DNA of 47,648 nt, taken from the NCBI GenBank assembly GCA_028278645.1, contig JANQDZ010000088.1:1-47648 (forward strand). Reading direction: 5' to 3'. Under the pieces are notes generated by a model that worked only from the letters and a program-made list of their open reading frames with translations, was not told the DNA's origin and did not search any database. This DNA is from Longimicrobiales bacterium (lineage in GTDB: Bacteria > Gemmatimonadota > Gemmatimonadetes > Longimicrobiales > Gaopeijiaceae). Below are positions 3,051 through 30,529 of the stretch, piece by piece (position 1 is the first letter of the stretch; each line of letters starts with the position of its first letter). Made by a program: the position numbers and the translations under genes.

Positions 3051-3380
3051 TCAAACGGTGAAGGAACTTCCGCAGCCACAACCTCCCGCAGCGTTGGGGT
3101 TCTTGAAGGTGAACCCGGACCCCATCATTGTCGTAACGTAATCGATCTCAACACCTTCCAGGTACTGGGCGCTGAAGGGATCCACGAAGACCTTCAGGCC
3201 CTCGAGCTCGAAGATCTCGTCGTCGTTCTCGGGGGCATCCTCGATATTCAAGCCATACTGGAACCCGGAACACCCACCGGGAAGAACGGCTACCCGGAGC
3301 CCGGCTCCCTCGGCTGCGCCCTGATCCTCGATGAACTGCTGAATCGTGCTTACAGCCGTGGGGGTCACATTGATCTGCAT
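3051..3380 (-). CDS. erpA: A-type iron-sulfur carrier (ErpA/IscA-like)
   Basis: This 109-residue protein belongs to the HesB/IscA/ErpA family, which passes Fe-S clusters to apo-enzymes in the cytosol. The three cluster-ligand cysteines are C37 (PGGCSGF), C101 and C103 (GGCGCGSS). The strongly acidic middle (EDAPENDDEIFELEG) and the C-terminal GCGCG are like ErpA. I chose the ATG at 3380 because GGAGG lies ten bases upstream; a GTG at 3410 would add ten residues that do not look conserved. The gene lies just upstream of nadA, whose product needs a [4Fe-4S] cluster, so a common transcript is likely. The assignment to ErpA rather than IscA or SufA is tentative. Confidence 0.9.
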   Translation of the reverse strand: MQINVTPTAVSTIQQFIEDQGAAEGAGLRVAVLPGGCSGFQYGLNIEDAPENDDEIFELEGLKVFVDPFSAQYLEGVEIDYVTTMMGSGFTFKNPNAAGGCGCGSSFTV

Positions 3381-3561
3381 TGTCCAACTTCCTCCAATAG
3401 TTCCGTTCACCTCGACAACAGGGGCTTATTCCTACCCGACGCTCCCTTTGCCAGTTCCGATGCGAATTTGGGTGAAAACCAAGACCTTTCAAGCTATTTG
3501 GGAGCCCCCGAAGGGTCAAGATGCCTGCGGTCAGGACACTTTTTCGTTAGTGCAAGATTGG

Positions 3562-4288: not shown

Positions 4289-5627
4289 CGGGGTCCACGG
4301 TTCTCAAGTCGATGACCACCTCCTCGTCCTCCACCCGGATGACCACCGGCCGAGGCAGGCTCCGAAGCTCCATGGCGAGGGCCCGGGGGGAAGAACCGGA
4401 AGGCTTTATGCGCACCGTCCAGGTCGGCAGATCGACCCCAGGACAGGTACCCCCACCCACCACTCCAATCCCTTCGGCGACCCTGTTCCCGGGGAAGCTC
4501 CGGTGGAGTTCCCTGGACAACCGGTGGGCCCTTTCCTCCAAAACACCCAAAGGGGCGGCCAGCATCCGAAGGGTGGGAATCTCCCGCAACGCTTCCTCCG
4601 GATCCAGGTAGTGCTTGAGGGTCGCCTCAAGACCGGCCAGGGTGACTTTATCCACGCGGAAGGCACGGCAGAGAGGGTTCTTCCGCATAGCCCCAACAAC
4701 CTCCGGGTCTCCCAGGATAATCCCGGCCTGGGGGCCGCCCAGGAGCTTGTCCCCGGAGATGGCCACGGCCGTTGCGCCGGCTTTGAGGCTTTCGATAGCT
4801 CTTGGTTCCCGAGGCAATCCGAGCCGCTCCGGATCGGCGAGAAGGCCCGACCCCAGGTCGTGGAAGAGGAAAAGCCCCAGCTCCTGGGCTAAGGTGGCCA
4901 GATCGGAGATCTGGACCTCCTCGGTGAAGCCCGAGATCCGGAAGTTGGACCGGTGGACTTTCAGGATGGCCCCAACGTCCCCGGTCTCCGCCGCCCCTCG
5001 GTAGTCTTCCACGCGGGTTCGGTTGGTGGTTCCGACTTCCTTCAACACCGCCCCTGAGCGCGACAACATGTCGGGAATGCGAAATCCCCCGCCGATCTCC
5101 ACCAACTCTCCCCTGGAGACCAGGACCTCCCTCCCCGTCGCCATGGAGTTCAACCCCAGAACCACCGCGGCGGCGTTGTTGTTCACCACCAGGGCGTCTT
5201 GAGCCCCGGTCAGCTCTTTCAGGAGGTCCACACAATGGACATACCGGGACCCCCGTTCTCCCCTGTCCAGGTCGAACTCGAGGTTGGAATACCCCCATCC
5301 TGCCCCGGCCATGGCGGCACGGGCCGCCTCCGAGAGAGGCGCACGCCCGAGGTTCGTATGGAGGACCACCCCAGTGGCATTTATGACACCCCTCAGTGAA
5401 GGAAGGTCTCGAACCGAGAGGAGGTCTTCTACTCGCCGGGCCCACTCCGCCTCGTCGGACGGAACCGCCGCCTCACCCCTGGTAGCGATCTCGCCCCGGG
5501 CCAGAACCAACGTGTCCCGGGCAGCCTCCACTACGCGGCCCCTGGGGTAGGCTTCCAGGATCCCCTGGAAAGCTCCAGATGCCAGCAGGACATCCACACC
5601 CGGGAGGTTCCTCCGAGGGTCGGTCAC
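4233..5627 (-). CDS. selA: L-seryl-tRNA(Sec) selenium transferase SelA
   Basis: SelA is a PLP enzyme that converts seryl-tRNA(Sec) to selenocysteinyl-tRNA(Sec) with selenophosphate. Diagnostic segments are VINATGVVLHTNLGRAPLS near the N-terminus, VVNNNAAAVVLGLN, the EIGGGFRIPD loop, HDLGSGLL and the PLP-lysine motif ISGDKLLGGPQAG (K294 from this start). The GTG at 5627 forms a GTGA overlap with the stop of the lipoprotein gene upstream and gives the family-like N-terminus. A GTG at 5648 would add seven residues. No selB, selC or selD was found here. The gene shows that the lineage probably decodes UGA as selenocysteine at some sites. It is placed between a lipoprotein gene and gmhB, with no functional link visible. 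Confidence 0.93.
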   Translation of the reverse strand: MTDPRRNLPGVDVLLASGAFQGILEAYPRGRVVEAARDTLVLARGEIATRGEAAVPSDEAEWARRVEDLLSVRDLPSLRGVINATGVVLHTNLGRAPLSEAARAAMAGAGWGYSNLEFDLDRGERGSRYVHCVDLLKELTGAQDALVVNNNAAAVVLGLNSMATGREVLVSRGELVEIGGGFRIPDMLSRSGAVLKEVGTTNRTRVEDYRGAAETGDVGAILKVHRSNFRISGFTEEVQISDLATLAQELGLFLFHDLGSGLLADPERLGLPREPRAIESLKAGATAVAISGDKLLGGPQAGIILGDPEVVGAMRKNPLCRAFRVDKVTLAGLEATLKHYLDPEEALREIPTLRMLAAPLGVLEERAHRLSRELHRSFPGNRVAEGIGVVGGGTCPGVDLPTWTVRIKPSGSSPRALAMELRSLPRPVVIRVEDEEVVIDLRTVDPDEDPALASALSEAVDAGD

Positions 5628-7231
5628 GGTCTTCGCCGGAGAACCCACGGCCCGGGGTCCCGGAGGCCGGCGGGGGGCTCAACCCGCCTGGGACGCCGGA
5701 GGGGAGCTTGATGGGGTTTCCTGCGCAACGCTTGGACCGGTCTGATTGCCTCTGGGGCCGTGCCCGCCCAGGCCTCTGGGGCCGTGCCCGCCCTGGCCTG
5801 CGGGGCCACCACACCCGTATCAGGCGGCACACTCCCAGCCGTATCCGGGGGGGTCACCCCGGCCGTATCGGGGACGGCACCCGCTGTGTCCGCCACCTCC
5901 TCCGGCGGGGGCTCGGGAGGCTCCCAGGTGAAGGACGCTTCTCCACCACCTCCCCCCAACCCATTGATGTTGACCACCCTGTCGATGACAGCCTGCAGGA
6001 GCTCATCCGGGGGCAATCCAGCCTCCATGCGGACAAAAAACTCTTGCTGTGGAAGAATGGGCGGGGTTTGAACGGGTTCCCCTGCAGGCGGTTCCATGGC
6101 CGGGGGCTCCGGGGGTTCCTCGGCGGTGGCAAGCTGATCCGATGCTTGTTCGATCTGGGCGCTTACGGAATCGGCGGCCAACGTGTCGCCCGCCGTCTGG
6201 AGTTCGATGAGTTGGTCGCCCAGAGTTTCGACAACCATCCGTAGCGAATCGATCCGGGCAAGGCGTTGCTCCTCAAAGGCCACGGAATCGGCTACGGCCT
6301 GCAAGGAGTCCACTTGCCGCGGCCACAGGAGCCGCGCGACCGGTAGGGCCTCACCCCCCTCGGGTGCGATCAGTACCCGGACAGAGTCCAGCGAAGCTTC
6401 GGCGTCCATGTAGTCGTCAAAGGTCACCCTGACCAGTAGGGAATCCACCGCTGCCACCTCGATGACCCGCGATGGAACGGTGTCCGGCGTCAGGAGGGTG
6501 ACTTCGGGAAGCAGGATCGTGTCAGCGGGGGCGGTCCCCAACCCCAAGCCCAAAGAATCGGCCATCCCCTGAAGCTCCCGGTAGTCCGGCTCCGAGTTTC
6601 GGTTGATGTCTTGATAGAGGGTCAACTCGTAGGACCCGGCGGGGAGATACCGAAGGGCAAAAACGCCCGCCGAATCGGACACGGCCACGTAAACGGGTGG
6701 GTCCACCCGGCCCTGCTCCCTCGCCTCCACACGTACGCCTTCGGCCGGTTCAGCGGTGATTCTCTCGGTGACGATCCCGGCCACCACATTTGTCTCAAAA
6801 ACGGGACCAGTGGAGAACACGAGCTCGAAGGGCCCCTCCAGCCTGTTATTGAAAAGGTCCTTCACGGTGGGGAGCACACGGACCCGGTACACCAGGTCGG
6901 GTTGGAAGCCTCCGATAACATCGATCTCCAAGCCCGAACGGGTGTGTTTGACCCTATGTTCTCCCGTTACCGGGGATACCAGAACCGCGTTGTCCAACCT
7001 ACCGTCGGTGGGAGTTTCACTGATCCGTTCACTGAAAATGATCTTCACCGGATCGCGTGTGGCCTCGATGGTCGCGAAGGTATCGGGCCAGGTCGAGGCG
7101 ATCATGGGCGGGATCACATCCCGAGGCCCCCCCGAGGGAGCCGACGGCCGGGCGCAGGCGGCAAACAGGACCACCCCACCGAAGAGGACGAACCTGCTCG
7201 GCCACGCCAACCACCGACTGGGTAGATTCAT
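5624..7231 (-). CDS. Ig-like (Big_5) domain lipoprotein
   Basis: This is an exported lipoprotein of 535 residues. A signal peptide ends in a lipobox (VVLFAAC, cysteine near residue 26), followed by the GGPRD motif often seen after the lipobox in FCB-group Big_5 proteins. Residues of about 40-150 form a Big_5 domain (DTFATI, KIIFSERI, LVYRVRVLPTVKDLFNNRL). A carboxypeptidase-regulatory-like fold follows (VVAGIVTERI to SYELTLYQDINRN). A region of about residues 310-370 is rich in acidic and glutamine residues and is probably a coiled coil. The tail, after about residue 440, is a low-complexity run of PDTAG-like repeats and then arginine-rich residues. The function is unknown; surface display or envelope binding is likely. 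Confidence 0.82.
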   Translation of the reverse strand: MNLPSRWLAWPSRFVLFGGVVLFAACARPSAPSGGPRDVIPPMIASTWPDTFATIEATRDPVKIIFSERISETPTDGRLDNAVLVSPVTGEHRVKHTRSGLEIDVIGGFQPDLVYRVRVLPTVKDLFNNRLEGPFELVFSTGPVFETNVVAGIVTERITAEPAEGVRVEAREQGRVDPPVYVAVSDSAGVFALRYLPAGSYELTLYQDINRNSEPDYRELQGMADSLGLGLGTAPADTILLPEVTLLTPDTVPSRVIEVAAVDSLLVRVTFDDYMDAEASLDSVRVLIAPEGGEALPVARLLWPRQVDSLQAVADSVAFEEQRLARIDSLRMVVETLGDQLIELQTAGDTLAADSVSAQIEQASDQLATAEEPPEPPAMEPPAGEPVQTPPILPQQEFFVRMEAGLPPDELLQAVIDRVVNINGLGGGGGEASFTWEPPEPPPEEVADTAGAVPDTAGVTPPDTAGSVPPDTGVVAPQARAGTAPEAWAGTAPEAIRPVQALRRKPHQAPLRRPRRVEPPAGLRDPGPWVLRRRP

Positions 7232-27215: not shown

Positions 27216-27586
27216 GGTTTCGTCCAGAAAAGAGGAGTTCGGCACCCAGGCCCTGGTGACACCCAGAGCTTCTCGAGTGGCCGACTGGAGTTGAATTCAC
27301 AGGATGGGGGCAGCCCGGTGGTACGGCAAGGAGAGGGCATCTATCCACGGAGAATTCGAGGACTGCTGGGAGACAGGCGAAGCGCTGTGCGGCCAGGCGG
27401 ATCGGACGAGGGAAGGAGTTAAACGTGAAGCGCCCGCCGACCAAGCGCAGTCGCTCTGGTGCGAAAGGAGGCCCGGCGCGACCAACGCGAAACGGGATCC
27501 GGAGAACTGCTGATTGAAGCTAGAGCCGAAGCGACAGAGGCGACTCAATGAGTTGATCTGTCTGCCCGGCGCTCCGCCATGATCAT
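27216..27586. other. Intergenic region between DUF4440 gene and DsbA-like frame
   Basis: This 371-base stretch has no credible gene. It holds one copy of the 34-bp direct repeat. It also holds an 11-base palindrome ACTCAATGAGT at 27543-27553. No strong promoter (TTGACA) for the DUF4440 gene was seen. Short frames on the minus strand have no ribosome-binding sites and no family features. Confidence 0.6.
27330..27363 (+). repeat. 34-bp direct repeat, copy 1
   Basis: This copy differs from the second one (30373-30406) at a single base: A here at 27343, C there. Both begin with GGAGAGGGCATCT and end with GAATTCGAGGAC, and both are in the same orientation. Weaker similarity (GGGGGCA then CCGG) extends about 25 bases upstream of both copies. 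The pair encloses 3,009 bases holding the beta-propeller, cysteine-rich and DsbA-like genes. Confidence 0.85.
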
Positions 27587-28216
27587 CTAATCAAACTCCT
27601 CCAGAGAAGGCCGACGAGCGAAAAGCCTACCGTTGACGATCAAAGTCGGAATCCCCAGTAAGCCCAACTTCCTGCCGGCCTCAATATCCGCCTCGATCTC
27701 CTCAACAGGTCCTTCTTGTCAGACACAGTTTTCGAATCTCTCGACGTTCGGCACGCCAACCTCCTCCGCGAACCGAAGGAAGGAGTTTCCAAGCCGGGTC
27801 TCCTCTTCGAAGAGTCGTCCATGGAATCCCCAAAACCGACCTTGATTAGCGGCGCACTGCGCAGCGCTCGCAGCCGTGTAGGCATATCGATGATAAGGTA
27901 GTGGAAAGTGACGGTACACCATTTCTACCTCCTTCGGCCACCGATCCATCACCTTTTCGAGAACCGGGCGGAGGCTTCGACAACCCGAACACTCATACTC
28001 ACCGAAGACGATAATTGTAACTGGAGCGTCGGCCGGACCCGTCAGTTGGCCCGCCTTTGCGAACTCTCGCCACCCTGAAACTTGGCGATCCTGTTCCTCG
28101 ATGATCAAGTTTTCGGATTGGTGGCGCGACAGGAGCGTAATCAGCGCGACCGCCAGAGCAACGGCTCCAATCGCGACTGTCAGAATATCGATTATAGCCT
28201 CGCGGGAACCTCTCAT
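27587..28216 (-). pseudogene. Membrane-anchored DsbA-like oxidoreductase with in-frame TGA
   Basis: Codons 1-165 (28216 to 27722) encode a DsbA-type thioredoxin-fold protein. It has an N-terminal transmembrane anchor (residues 9-29), the redox motif CSGC in FGEYECSGCRSLRPV, and the helical insert (YTAASAAQCAANQGRF, HGRLFEEE). TGA at 27719-27721 follows FENCV. The frame continues without other stops for 43 codons to TAG at 27587. It encodes what the family needs next: EEIEADIEAGRKLGLLGIPT with the cis-proline, then LIVNGRLF. So the protein would lose an essential strand if the TGA stops translation. A CGA-to-TGA mutation is the simplest cause. Readthrough or selenocysteine is possible because selA is present. 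It is last in the island operon. Confidence 0.8.
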
Positions 28217-28350
28217 ATGACCAAGTGCCCCTCAGGTGGAAACCCGGTTCAAGGAGTCGGTGTGAGCCTCCTCATGGAGGAGATCTCAGGATGCTGGCGT
28301 GGCAGCAGGTCAGTATGAACCCCGACTCCGGATCCTGGATCACACCAGGT

Positions 28351-28581
28351 CTACGCGTTAAAGCAGTCGATCTCCCAATCCGGGCATTTTGAGCTGGGGA
28401 ATATGCATCTGGCAGAATCCCTGTCACAGTGCTCCTGACACTGCTCCTCGATATCAACAGGGCAGTTGGGGCTGCAGATGTCTATGCATGGTTCATCAGC
28501 CATCGCGACGTTGGACTAGGCCTGCAAAGAGACACCCAACGCCACACAAGTCACGGACAATCGGACCATTCTTCTGACCAT
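28351..28581 (-). pseudogene. Small exported eight-cysteine protein with in-frame TAG
   Basis: A frame of 76 codons starts at ATG 28581, with a good GGGAG about nine bases upstream. The first 21 codons form a signal peptide core (RRMVRLSVTCVALGVSLQA). Codon 22 is TAG (28516-28518). The frame then continues SNVAMADEPCIDICSPNC, followed by EEQC, QEHC, ARC, SSKC and EIDC, and ends in FNA with TAG at 28351. The part after the stop has eight cysteines in about 45 residues and a likely cleavage site after VAMA. This is a short secreted disulfide-rich peptide if the TAG is not real or is read through. Otherwise it is a recent pseudogene. It lies between the propeller and DsbA-like genes on the same strand. 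Confidence 0.6.
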
Positions 28582-28666
28582 ACGAATACTCTCCCTGTGG
28601 TTTTTTTTGACCTGCCGCCACGCGAGCGGAGAAGAAAAGAAGGCATGGATGTTGCCTCGAGCCCCC

Positions 28667-29881
28667 TCAGCCGGCTTCGATTCTGTACCTCAAAATGGAC
28701 TCCTCGCCGAACTGTCCTTCCTCGATCACCCAAACCGAAAAACCCTTAGCCACGACCGGCTTGGTGAGATGGTTCGGGAACTGAATTGTCCCGAGGAAAT
28801 GACCGGTCGGATCGATCACGTCGAAAACGAGCGGTTCCCACCATTCGCGTGGAGGGTTCCCGAAGCGATCGCGCCGGTCCTGTTCAGTGGGAGTCTCGGG
28901 AATCCGACTCGCCACGCCATGCCTCGCGACCCAGAGCCGTCCAGTTTGGTCTATCCAAAGCCTCCAGAAAGGGGGCTTCTGGGAGGGAACTTTTCGGGCT
29001 GTTCTTCCGTTTCGGAGGGCGTAGTGATCTTCCAGACGTTGAAAGGCCCGGCGTTCCTTTCGTCCCACGGGAAGTGGTTCCCAGGAACGTTCAACTCTCA
29101 CTGTACAGCCGTCTCCTCGAAGCCGGTCAAAAGCGTAGGTGTCGTTTCTTCCGACGATCAGATTTCCGGCCGGGTCCAGCTCACTCATGGTTCTTTGGGA
29201 AAAGGCGTACATTTTCCCGATTGGATAGTTTTGGCCAGTCTGAGGTCCTTCGATTTCCATCGGCGGGGACCAGATCGTGTCCTGGACCTGGCCATCGAGT
29301 GCAACGCGGATCCAGGCTTCCCGGATCTGGCCAAAAGCTCCGATCGCATCTCTAACGTACAAGAAACCCGCTTTGTCCGACCGGAGTGTTTCTGGTCCCG
29401 AAATCACCGGGGCGGCTACTCGGAATCCGCCGAGATACTTGCCGGCTGAGGAGAACAGGCTCATCCGTCCGAGAGCAGGATCCCACGCAGCAACACGGCC
29501 ATCCGGCAGTCTCGCGATGCCTGAAAGGCGCTCGAATTCTCCCGGCCCCTCTCCGCGCCGTCCCACGTCCCCCACCGGGACTCCTTCTGCGGTGAACCGA
29601 CGGATCTTCATAGCGATCCCATCGGCAGCCCAGATGACCCCATCATCCTGCACCACGACACCCAAGATCCGACCGAAGTTGTACGCCTCCTCGGCTTCCG
29701 CGCCGCCGATCCGGATTTCCTCCACCACGGCAGGCGCTCCCCCCCAAACCGGAGGATTGTCAGCGCGAACCACGAGGGTATCTTGGGCGCTGCCGGCACC
29801 CGCCCACAAAGCAAGGAAGAGGAGTGAACAGACGGGAGGACTCCCTCTGCGCAAAGGATAGTTGACACTTTCGACGTCCAT
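28667..29881 (-). CDS. Exported 6-bladed beta-propeller protein
   Basis: This 404-residue protein has a signal peptide (CSLLFLALWAGAGSAQ, cleavage near residue 32) and then a propeller of the 6-bladed beta-propeller family (PF17170-like). Repeating blades are visible, for example VVVQDDGVIWAADGIAMKIRRF, VGRRGEGPGEFERLSGIARL, DPALGRMSLFSS and FWRLWIDQTGRLWVARHG. The GxGPGEF motif is characteristic. The ATG at 29881 is chosen because it starts the signal peptide; the frame is open another 63 codons upstream. It is the first gene of the island operon, before the cysteine-rich peptide and the DsbA-like gene. The function is unknown; ligand or protein binding outside the inner membrane is likely. 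Confidence 0.82.
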   Translation of the reverse strand: MDVESVNYPLRRGSPPVCSLLFLALWAGAGSAQDTLVVRADNPPVWGGAPAVVEEIRIGGAEAEEAYNFGRILGVVVQDDGVIWAADGIAMKIRRFTAEGVPVGDVGRRGEGPGEFERLSGIARLPDGRVAAWDPALGRMSLFSSAGKYLGGFRVAAPVISGPETLRSDKAGFLYVRDAIGAFGQIREAWIRVALDGQVQDTIWSPPMEIEGPQTGQNYPIGKMYAFSQRTMSELDPAGNLIVGRNDTYAFDRLRGDGCTVRVERSWEPLPVGRKERRAFQRLEDHYALRNGRTARKVPSQKPPFWRLWIDQTGRLWVARHGVASRIPETPTEQDRRDRFGNPPREWWEPLVFDVIDPTGHFLGTIQFPNHLTKPVVAKGFSVWVIEEGQFGEESILRYRIEAG

Positions 29882-30185
29882 CTCATCAGCCCTGAAGAGA
29901 AAAAGACTCTTTATGTCTCGTTGTATGATGCCATGAGAAACCCGGTTCGGTCTCCGCCGCATCGGTAGCTTTTCCTTATCCCTAGGAAATCGGTAAGCCA
30001 GCATCTTTGGCCTGAGGGACCAGCCTTCAGGTTTTCTTTTCCAGTGGGCGGACGGAGAAATCAGCGGCAACTCTGAAATCGGCTTGACTCCGAATCTCCC
30101 CGACAGTCATCAACGGAGCCCACCCAAACCTGGCTCGGCGATCCAGCTCCTCCTCGGCGAATCAGATGATCACAGAGTTGCAGAT

Positions 30186-30218
30186 ATCCTACCCTACCCC
30201 CCCCGCGGCGATTGTCAA
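30186..30218 (-). promoter_or_regulatory. Candidate promoter for the island operon
   Basis: On the minus strand, a perfect -35 TTGACA (30213-30218) is followed after 16 bases by TAGGGT (30191-30196), with TAGGAT overlapping next to it (30186-30191). The spacer contains a run of eight G. The box faces the beta-propeller gene and would give a leader of about 300 bases. Confidence 0.45.
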
Positions 30219-30372
30219 GTCGAGGACGGAAAGGACCTGAAGACCCCGGGGCCGGGGCGATTCCCACAGCGGCCATCGGGCGGTCAGGGGCCGAACGGCC
30301 CCGCCGCCCGTAGCGAAGCGGGGCCGCGAGGGAACGGGCCGGGACCGGGGGCAACCGACCGGAATTGGGGGC

Positions 30373-30406
30373 GGAGAGGGCATCTCTCCACGGAGAATTC
30401 GAGGAC
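30373..30406 (+). repeat. 34-bp direct repeat, copy 2
   Basis: This copy matches 27330-27363 at 33 of 34 positions. The first 17 bases can form a perfect hairpin (GGAGAG, five-base loop, CTCTCC); in copy 1 this stem has one mismatch. It lies between lysA and the island promoter. Sequences beyond the core differ, so the repeat is not just a duplicated gene end. Confidence 0.85.
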
Positions 30407-30529
30407 GGCCGGGCTTTTTGTTCGTCCCCCGGCGGCATGCAAGAAGGCTGGAAGGAAGAGGGGCGGTGCGGAACCCGATTCCACAGAATCCGAGTGGAAG
30501 ACAATGCCAGAAGGGCAGGACCCGAAAGG

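Follow-up and report, generated by a model that had tools for sequence, protein, structure and literature searches.

What would an exported beta-propeller, a tiny exported protein with eight cysteines and a membrane-anchored DsbA-like thiol oxidoreductase do side by side in a bacterial genome? The question is raised by three genes on the minus strand of contig JANQDZ010000088.1 of a Longimicrobiales bacterium (assembly GCA_028278645.1). The window analyzed here is the whole stretch of 47,648 nucleotides, which corresponds to one entire contig (C10) among the 103 that make up the 4.9-Mb genome. The genes lie in the order propeller-peptide-DsbA between lysA and a SnoaL/DUF4440-like gene, and a sequence-only reading of the window had proposed that together, as one cassette possibly in decay, they make, fold and bind a secreted disulfide-rich peptide. 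Our comparative analysis supports this proposal, with the oxidation and binding steps still inferred: the locus probably represents a decayed member of a recurrent family of cassettes whose product is a secreted disulfide-rich peptide, which would be exported by Sec, folded by the DsbA and accompanied by the propeller as a binding partner.

Linkage of Cysteine-Rich Peptides to a Branch of DsbA Proteins

When 121 genomes of the family were searched directly with the 50-residue peptide of the window, no match had an E-value below 0.02, because the peptide is too short and too variable, and relatives were therefore sought through their linkage to DsbA. DsbA homologues were ranked in the family, and stretches of about 10 kb surrounding the top-ranked genes were scanned under a fixed rule for open reading frames (ORFs) encoding exported cysteine-rich products, with signal peptides called by a simple hydrophobicity rule. 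In the 214 kb surrounding the DsbAs there were 22 such ORFs, compared to none in 144 kb of sequence flanking the closest propellers that lacked such a DsbA. At the phylum level, a DsbA profile search of the Gemmatimonadota and 80 further contexts were considered, using for some profile searches a closer subset of the cassette DsbAs, as the full set was too varied. High-scoring DsbAs had a nearby exported ORF with 6, 8 or 10 cysteines on the same strand, usually together with a six-bladed propeller, and no such ORF stood alongside the generic DsbAs of the phylum-wide contexts. Under a relaxed rule, 55 of the 84 DsbAs scoring at least 178 bits had the ORF within 1.7 kb on the same strand and 3 had it on the opposite strand; inspection of those without a called ORF found contig ends, fewer cysteines or peptides failing the signal rule. 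The trio first noticed in the window is thus found, intact and in highly varied forms, at many other loci of the Gemmatimonadota, a phylum of soil and marine bacteria.

Phylogenetic analysis of 113 DsbAs confirmed this linkage. One branch, with a support of 99 in the Shimodaira-Hasegawa-like approximate likelihood ratio test (SH-aLRT), contained all 70 peptide-linked DsbAs (10 of these labels having been set by hand after inspection of loci that the filter had missed) and 22 without a recognised peptide, while none of the 21 DsbAs on the opposite side of the tree was peptide-linked (Fisher test, 3e-11). The DsbA of the window falls inside the peptide-linked branch, in a 12-row set with an SH-aLRT support of 96. 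The best-matching named records were nearly all metagenome-assembled genomes of Gemmatimonadota, and outside this phylum only one Chloroflexota locus (L169, Longilinea) showed an eight-cysteine exported ORF (5564-5845) beside a DsbA. A DsbA search of viral contigs found none.

When the mature peptide of the window was compared with the recovered peptides, the best match was the peptide of the locus G060:C25 (score 86), a score that none of 500 cysteine-preserving shuffles searched against all peptides attained. All eight cysteines align between the two, so their positions are conserved. The same locus provides the best match of the window DsbA (43% identity, E = 5e-53) and a propeller 38% identical to that of the window, although its gene order, peptide-DsbA-propeller, is different. 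For the window copy taken by itself, putative membership in the cassette family rests on this match.

Features of the Peptides

The number of cysteines was even in 59 of 65 peptides (p = 5e-12), and this parity was retained while the spacing and number of the cysteines varied widely; in L107, L110 and L249, for example, two cysteines are gained together through a nine-residue insertion, and all the remaining cysteines align. In four close pairs the proportion of nonsynonymous differences (pN) was lower than that of synonymous differences (pS), with pN/pS of 0.07/0.14, 0.17/0.37, 0.22/0.42 and 0.10/0.40, and these ORFs are therefore considered coding. Among pairs chosen because their leaders were at least 0.5 identical, the median identity was 0.59 in the leader and 0.25 in the non-cysteine mature part, a contrast that is indicative only because the choice of pairs favors the leader. 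Tandem peptide genes occurred at several loci, such as L114, L278, L305 and L339, and a search of ten peptides against Pfam and NCBIfam gave no meaningful match. The predicted products resemble the exported cysteine-containing precursors of clusters for disulfide-bonded bacteriocins and other ribosomally synthesized and post-translationally modified peptides.

Proteins Encoded in the Window

The propeller gene of the window is an open frame encoding 404 residues with an export signal, as the sequence-only reading had described. An AlphaFold2 model of the protein displays successive four-stranded sheets, with a mean predicted local distance difference test (pLDDT) of 77.6, and its best PDB matches by both fold and profile are NHL six-bladed propellers, together with exported propellers of Bacteroides, so that the protein is modeled as an NHL-type six-bladed propeller. 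It is 38% identical to the propeller of the cassette L099/L139, and the DUF5128-type family PF17170 was matched weakly and only by this relative (the L099 propeller). The window genome also carries, on contig G000:C38 (L122), a paralogous propeller array, the closest member being 40% identical to the window propeller, with no peptide or DsbA gene nearby.

The small frame has a Shine-Dalgarno-like GGGAG before its ATG and, after a TAG within the signal peptide, a frame of 50 residues holding the eight cysteines. The window DsbA has an N-terminal membrane anchor, a CSGC motif and a Thioredoxin_4 match (E = 1.8e-11), and its frame is interrupted by a TGA beyond which the reading continues in frame up to a TAG. 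The DsbA profile matched DsbA and BdbD structures in PDB, the CxxC cysteines are invariant and P190 is near-invariant; the thioredoxin fold, CxxC motif, cis-proline loop and exported or anchored location that define DsbA-like enzymes are therefore all predicted. The stop codons noted earlier in two of the three frames were confirmed, and such premature stops in the peptide and DsbA frames support the view that the window copy is a decayed relic of the recurrent cassette, dead or dying. The same genome has two more loci with a peptide and a DsbA, both without stops (L133 on C9 and L134 on C19).

Composition of the Cassette

In the neighborhoods of 34 loci, DsbA plus propeller was the single large recurrent cluster and the next clusters reached only 3 loci; no recurrent dedicated exporter or small immunity gene was present in more than 3 of the 34. 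Moreover, three proteins of about 600 residues, each encoded alongside an exported cysteine-rich ORF (Table 1), are DsbA-propeller fusions with 26-34% identity among themselves, and these fusions tie the parts of the cassette together physically. Two further candidates (L253 and L255) proved to be artefactual, caused by long frames upstream. In cassettes devoid of a propeller, the next gene sometimes encodes a CarboxypepD_reg (Ig-like) protein or a MacB/FtsX permease (L308:5273-7543, L133:982-3459 and L278:5183-7666).

Flanking Repeats and Mobility

The sequence-only reading had placed the unit between two direct repeats of 34 bp, and two repeats do enclose the three genes, with the correction that they are 41 nucleotides long and 93% identical. 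No further copy of this repeat exists in the 4.9-Mb genome, and its chance expectation in the window is 0.01. Direct repeats scoring above 50 bits flanked 6 of 60 cassettes, including that of the window, whereas a null set of 250 placements gave a single case. The L112 cassette follows an arylsulfatase gene, and its repeat duplicates the final 305 bp, the 3' end, of that gene with 94% identity (3227-3530 and 6420-6724); long flanking repeats of this kind were also seen at L270, L102 and L307. Such patterns suggest repeated insertion of cassettes via more than one route.

A separate observation concerns L300 (G081:C199), where attC-like sites at about 1294-1425 and 4338-4465 surround a peptide and DsbA cassette with toxin-antitoxin-like genes nearby; the arrangement, in a Gemmatimonadota genome, resembles an array of the integron type. 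G327 and G193 encode strong relatives of integron integrases, whereas none was found in G081. An integron origin of the window copy was rejected, since no attC-like site is present in the window. For an empty-site comparison, a lysA match was sought in two genomes of the same genus and none was found in either.

The impression of a lower GC content than in the surroundings was confirmed, as the GC content of the region 27590-29881 is 0.576, and that of the two 5-kb flanks is 0.605 and 0.621; the dip is mild, and only 2.9% of windows of 2.3 kb are equally low. The claim of a strong promoter was the one detail without support: a -35-like TTGACA exists at about 30213-30218 on the minus strand, but no -10 element paired with it in a consensus promoter scan. 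The distal repeat is adjoined by a GC-rich palindromic element (30246-30336) with five more copies in the genome (L002-L006). Searches with PADLOC and Rfam gave no matches.

Table 1. Coordinates of the window features and of the DsbA-propeller fusions.
Feature	Location	Strand	Remarks
Exported six-bladed NHL-type beta-propeller (modeled)	28667-29881	-	Intact ORF; PDB fold and profile matches
Exported eight-cysteine small peptide (predicted), decayed	28351-28581	-	TAG at 28516-28518 in signal peptide; cysteine alignment with G060:C25
Membrane-anchored DsbA-like thiol oxidoreductase (predicted), decayed	27590-28216	-	CSGC motif; TGA at 27719-27721; peptide-linked branch
Direct repeat, proximal copy	27330-27370	+	Two copies only in genome
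Direct repeat, distal copy, just downstream of lysA	30373-30413	+	Two copies only in genome
DsbA-propeller fusion	L114:8526-10325	+	About 600 residues; exported cysteine-rich ORF alongside
DsbA-propeller fusion	L330:920-2725	-	About 600 residues; exported cysteine-rich ORF alongside
DsbA-propeller fusion	L331:2899-4788	-	About 600 residues; exported cysteine-rich ORF alongside

Alternative Explanations and Known Systems

DsbAs, propellers and small frames are all common, with propellers being very numerous in these genomes, and some would be expected to adjoin by accident. However, the clade-specific linkage, the same-strand bias, the even cysteine counts, the purifying selection in close pairs and the fusions effectively refute a chance neighborhood for the family, and this explanation is hardly credible. 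The same three kinds of part occur in the methylamine dehydrogenase (Mau) operon, which comprises the propeller MauB, the cysteine-rich MauA and the thioredoxin-like MauD, and the locus could accordingly be read as a quinone-cofactor enzyme related to methylamine or quinohemoprotein amine dehydrogenase, having a propeller as large subunit, a cysteine-rich small subunit in which a conserved tryptophan and its partner form the cofactor TTQ or CTQ, and a DsbA-like MauD maturase. Such an enzyme is largely refuted because tryptophan is absent from 21 of the 65 peptides; in addition, none of the tested peptides matched the MauA or QhpC families in Pfam or NCBIfam, their mature parts are hypervariable, the propeller is of the six-bladed NHL type and MauG, MauE and radical-SAM genes do not recur in the neighborhoods (the rest of the genomes was not searched), all of which leaves it very improbable. 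Another association to be considered is that of the Bacteroides NVEALA peptides (PF14055), which occur near six-bladed propellers of PF17170; here too the peptide genes are small, exported and cysteine-containing, and the propellers belong to the same broad family, as indicated by the weak match of L099. Nonetheless, PF14055 had no match in the window genome or among the tested peptides. The association itself was looked for in a sample of Bacteroidota that had no member above the cut-off.

Sublancin and glycocin clusters encode a small disulfide-bonded peptide with its own thiol-disulfide oxidoreductase, and are defined by a glycosyltransferase and an ABC transporter, which do not recur at the cassettes. 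Peptide bacteriocin clusters with dedicated oxidoreductases are known, and a system of the bacteriocin type, with the peptide as a toxin and the propeller as an immunity or receptor-blocking protein, would agree with the conserved leader and hypervariable mature part, the tandem peptide genes, the many copies per genome and the mobile-looking loci. This possibility, which is a version of the best explanation taken one step beyond the data, is nevertheless rather unlikely, considering that no transporter or small immunity gene is recurrent, that the peptides are mostly acidic and that some loci have no propeller. An experimental precedent for a DsbA oxidising its own peptide is provided by the TMcin cluster, in which the DsbA-family protein TmcD forms the disulfide of the ribosomal peptide TmcA, a step required for activity (PMC13252029). 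TMcin itself is transmembrane, has a single disulfide and is served by an intramembrane protease and an ABC transporter, whereas the cassette peptides have a Sec-type signal and the potential for 3-5 disulfides, and are accompanied by a propeller but by no recurrent transporter. Alternatively, the peptide could be a redox or metal-handling partner with cysteines that cycle or bind metal, while DsbA and propeller would act as a thiol relay or sensor. In Helicobacter, the membrane Dsb protein DsbI joins a beta-propeller to a disulfide-forming system and is the redox partner of a general periplasmic oxidoreductase (PMC4597128), and acidic cysteine-rich peptides could bind metal. In the cassettes, however, the propeller is fused to or adjoins the oxidase itself and peptides are linked to it; furthermore, the varied spacing and number of cysteines with parity kept fit structural disulfides better than a conserved site, and the mature sequences diverge strongly, so that this role appears improbable.

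The preferred explanation remains that of a recurrent cassette for a secreted disulfide-rich peptide, and several observations weigh against it. Of the 22 DsbAs that lack a recognised peptide within the linked branch, some are accounted for by contig ends or fewer cysteines. The gene order varies between loci, and the propeller is sometimes missing or replaced: it was not detected in 23 of 62 peptide loci and may thus not be essential, and clusters containing CarboxypepD_reg or MacB/FtsX permeases were found in 6 and 4 of the 62 loci, respectively. The propellers closest to that of the window are mostly outside cassettes. The mature parts of the peptides are mostly acidic, with a mean charge of -3.9, which is unusual for antimicrobial peptides, and the AlphaFold2 model of the peptide had low confidence (pLDDT 65.7) and was uninformative.

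Proposed Mechanism

According to the cassette explanation, the product of the small gene would be exported by a Sec-type signal peptide, as predicted from sequence in about 79 relatives. The adjoining membrane-anchored DsbA, a member of a specialised branch, would then insert its 3-5 disulfides, a role inferred because of the clade-specific linkage, the even cysteine counts and the intact catalytic motif. The exported propeller, which is fused to the DsbA in places, may bind the peptide or position it for the enzyme, may serve as its surface receptor or holder, or both. Both the oxidation and the binding are suggested by the strand linkage, the parity of the cysteines and the fusions. The folded peptide would act outside the cytoplasm. 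It may be speculated that the peptides have a diversifying role, for instance in intercellular competition or recognition, because the mature parts vary rapidly on a fixed cysteine frame, with many copies per genome and mobile-looking insertions.

Significance

A peptide with a dedicated maturation enzyme is a known kind of system, and there is a real chance that this cassette represents something new in function. The sequence-only reading knew of no described system of this type, and we found neither a name nor an account of the set in Pfam, NCBIfam or the literature searched, which covered few subscription journals, so a published account may exist. Taken more broadly, the cassettes might constitute a phylum-wide repertoire of diversifying secreted cystine-rich peptides with private DsbA and propeller machines, in some cases fused into a single protein, moving as mobile cassettes that include integron-type arrays and serving intercellular recognition or antagonism, a tentative proposal that we consider somewhat less probable than its opposite. 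If true, it would parallel the defensin-like peptide arsenals in design, on the Gram-negative side.

Overall, these results point to a large number of disulfide-rich peptides, as yet without annotation, in a phylum that is common but little studied. Each peptide is supplied with its probable folding enzyme, which is usually the missing piece for laboratory production. The cassettes also offer a way to test whether hypervariable secreted peptides in bacteria are served by specialised DsbA enzymes instead of general ones, and what purpose is served by the propellers that are so abundant in Gemmatimonadota genomes.

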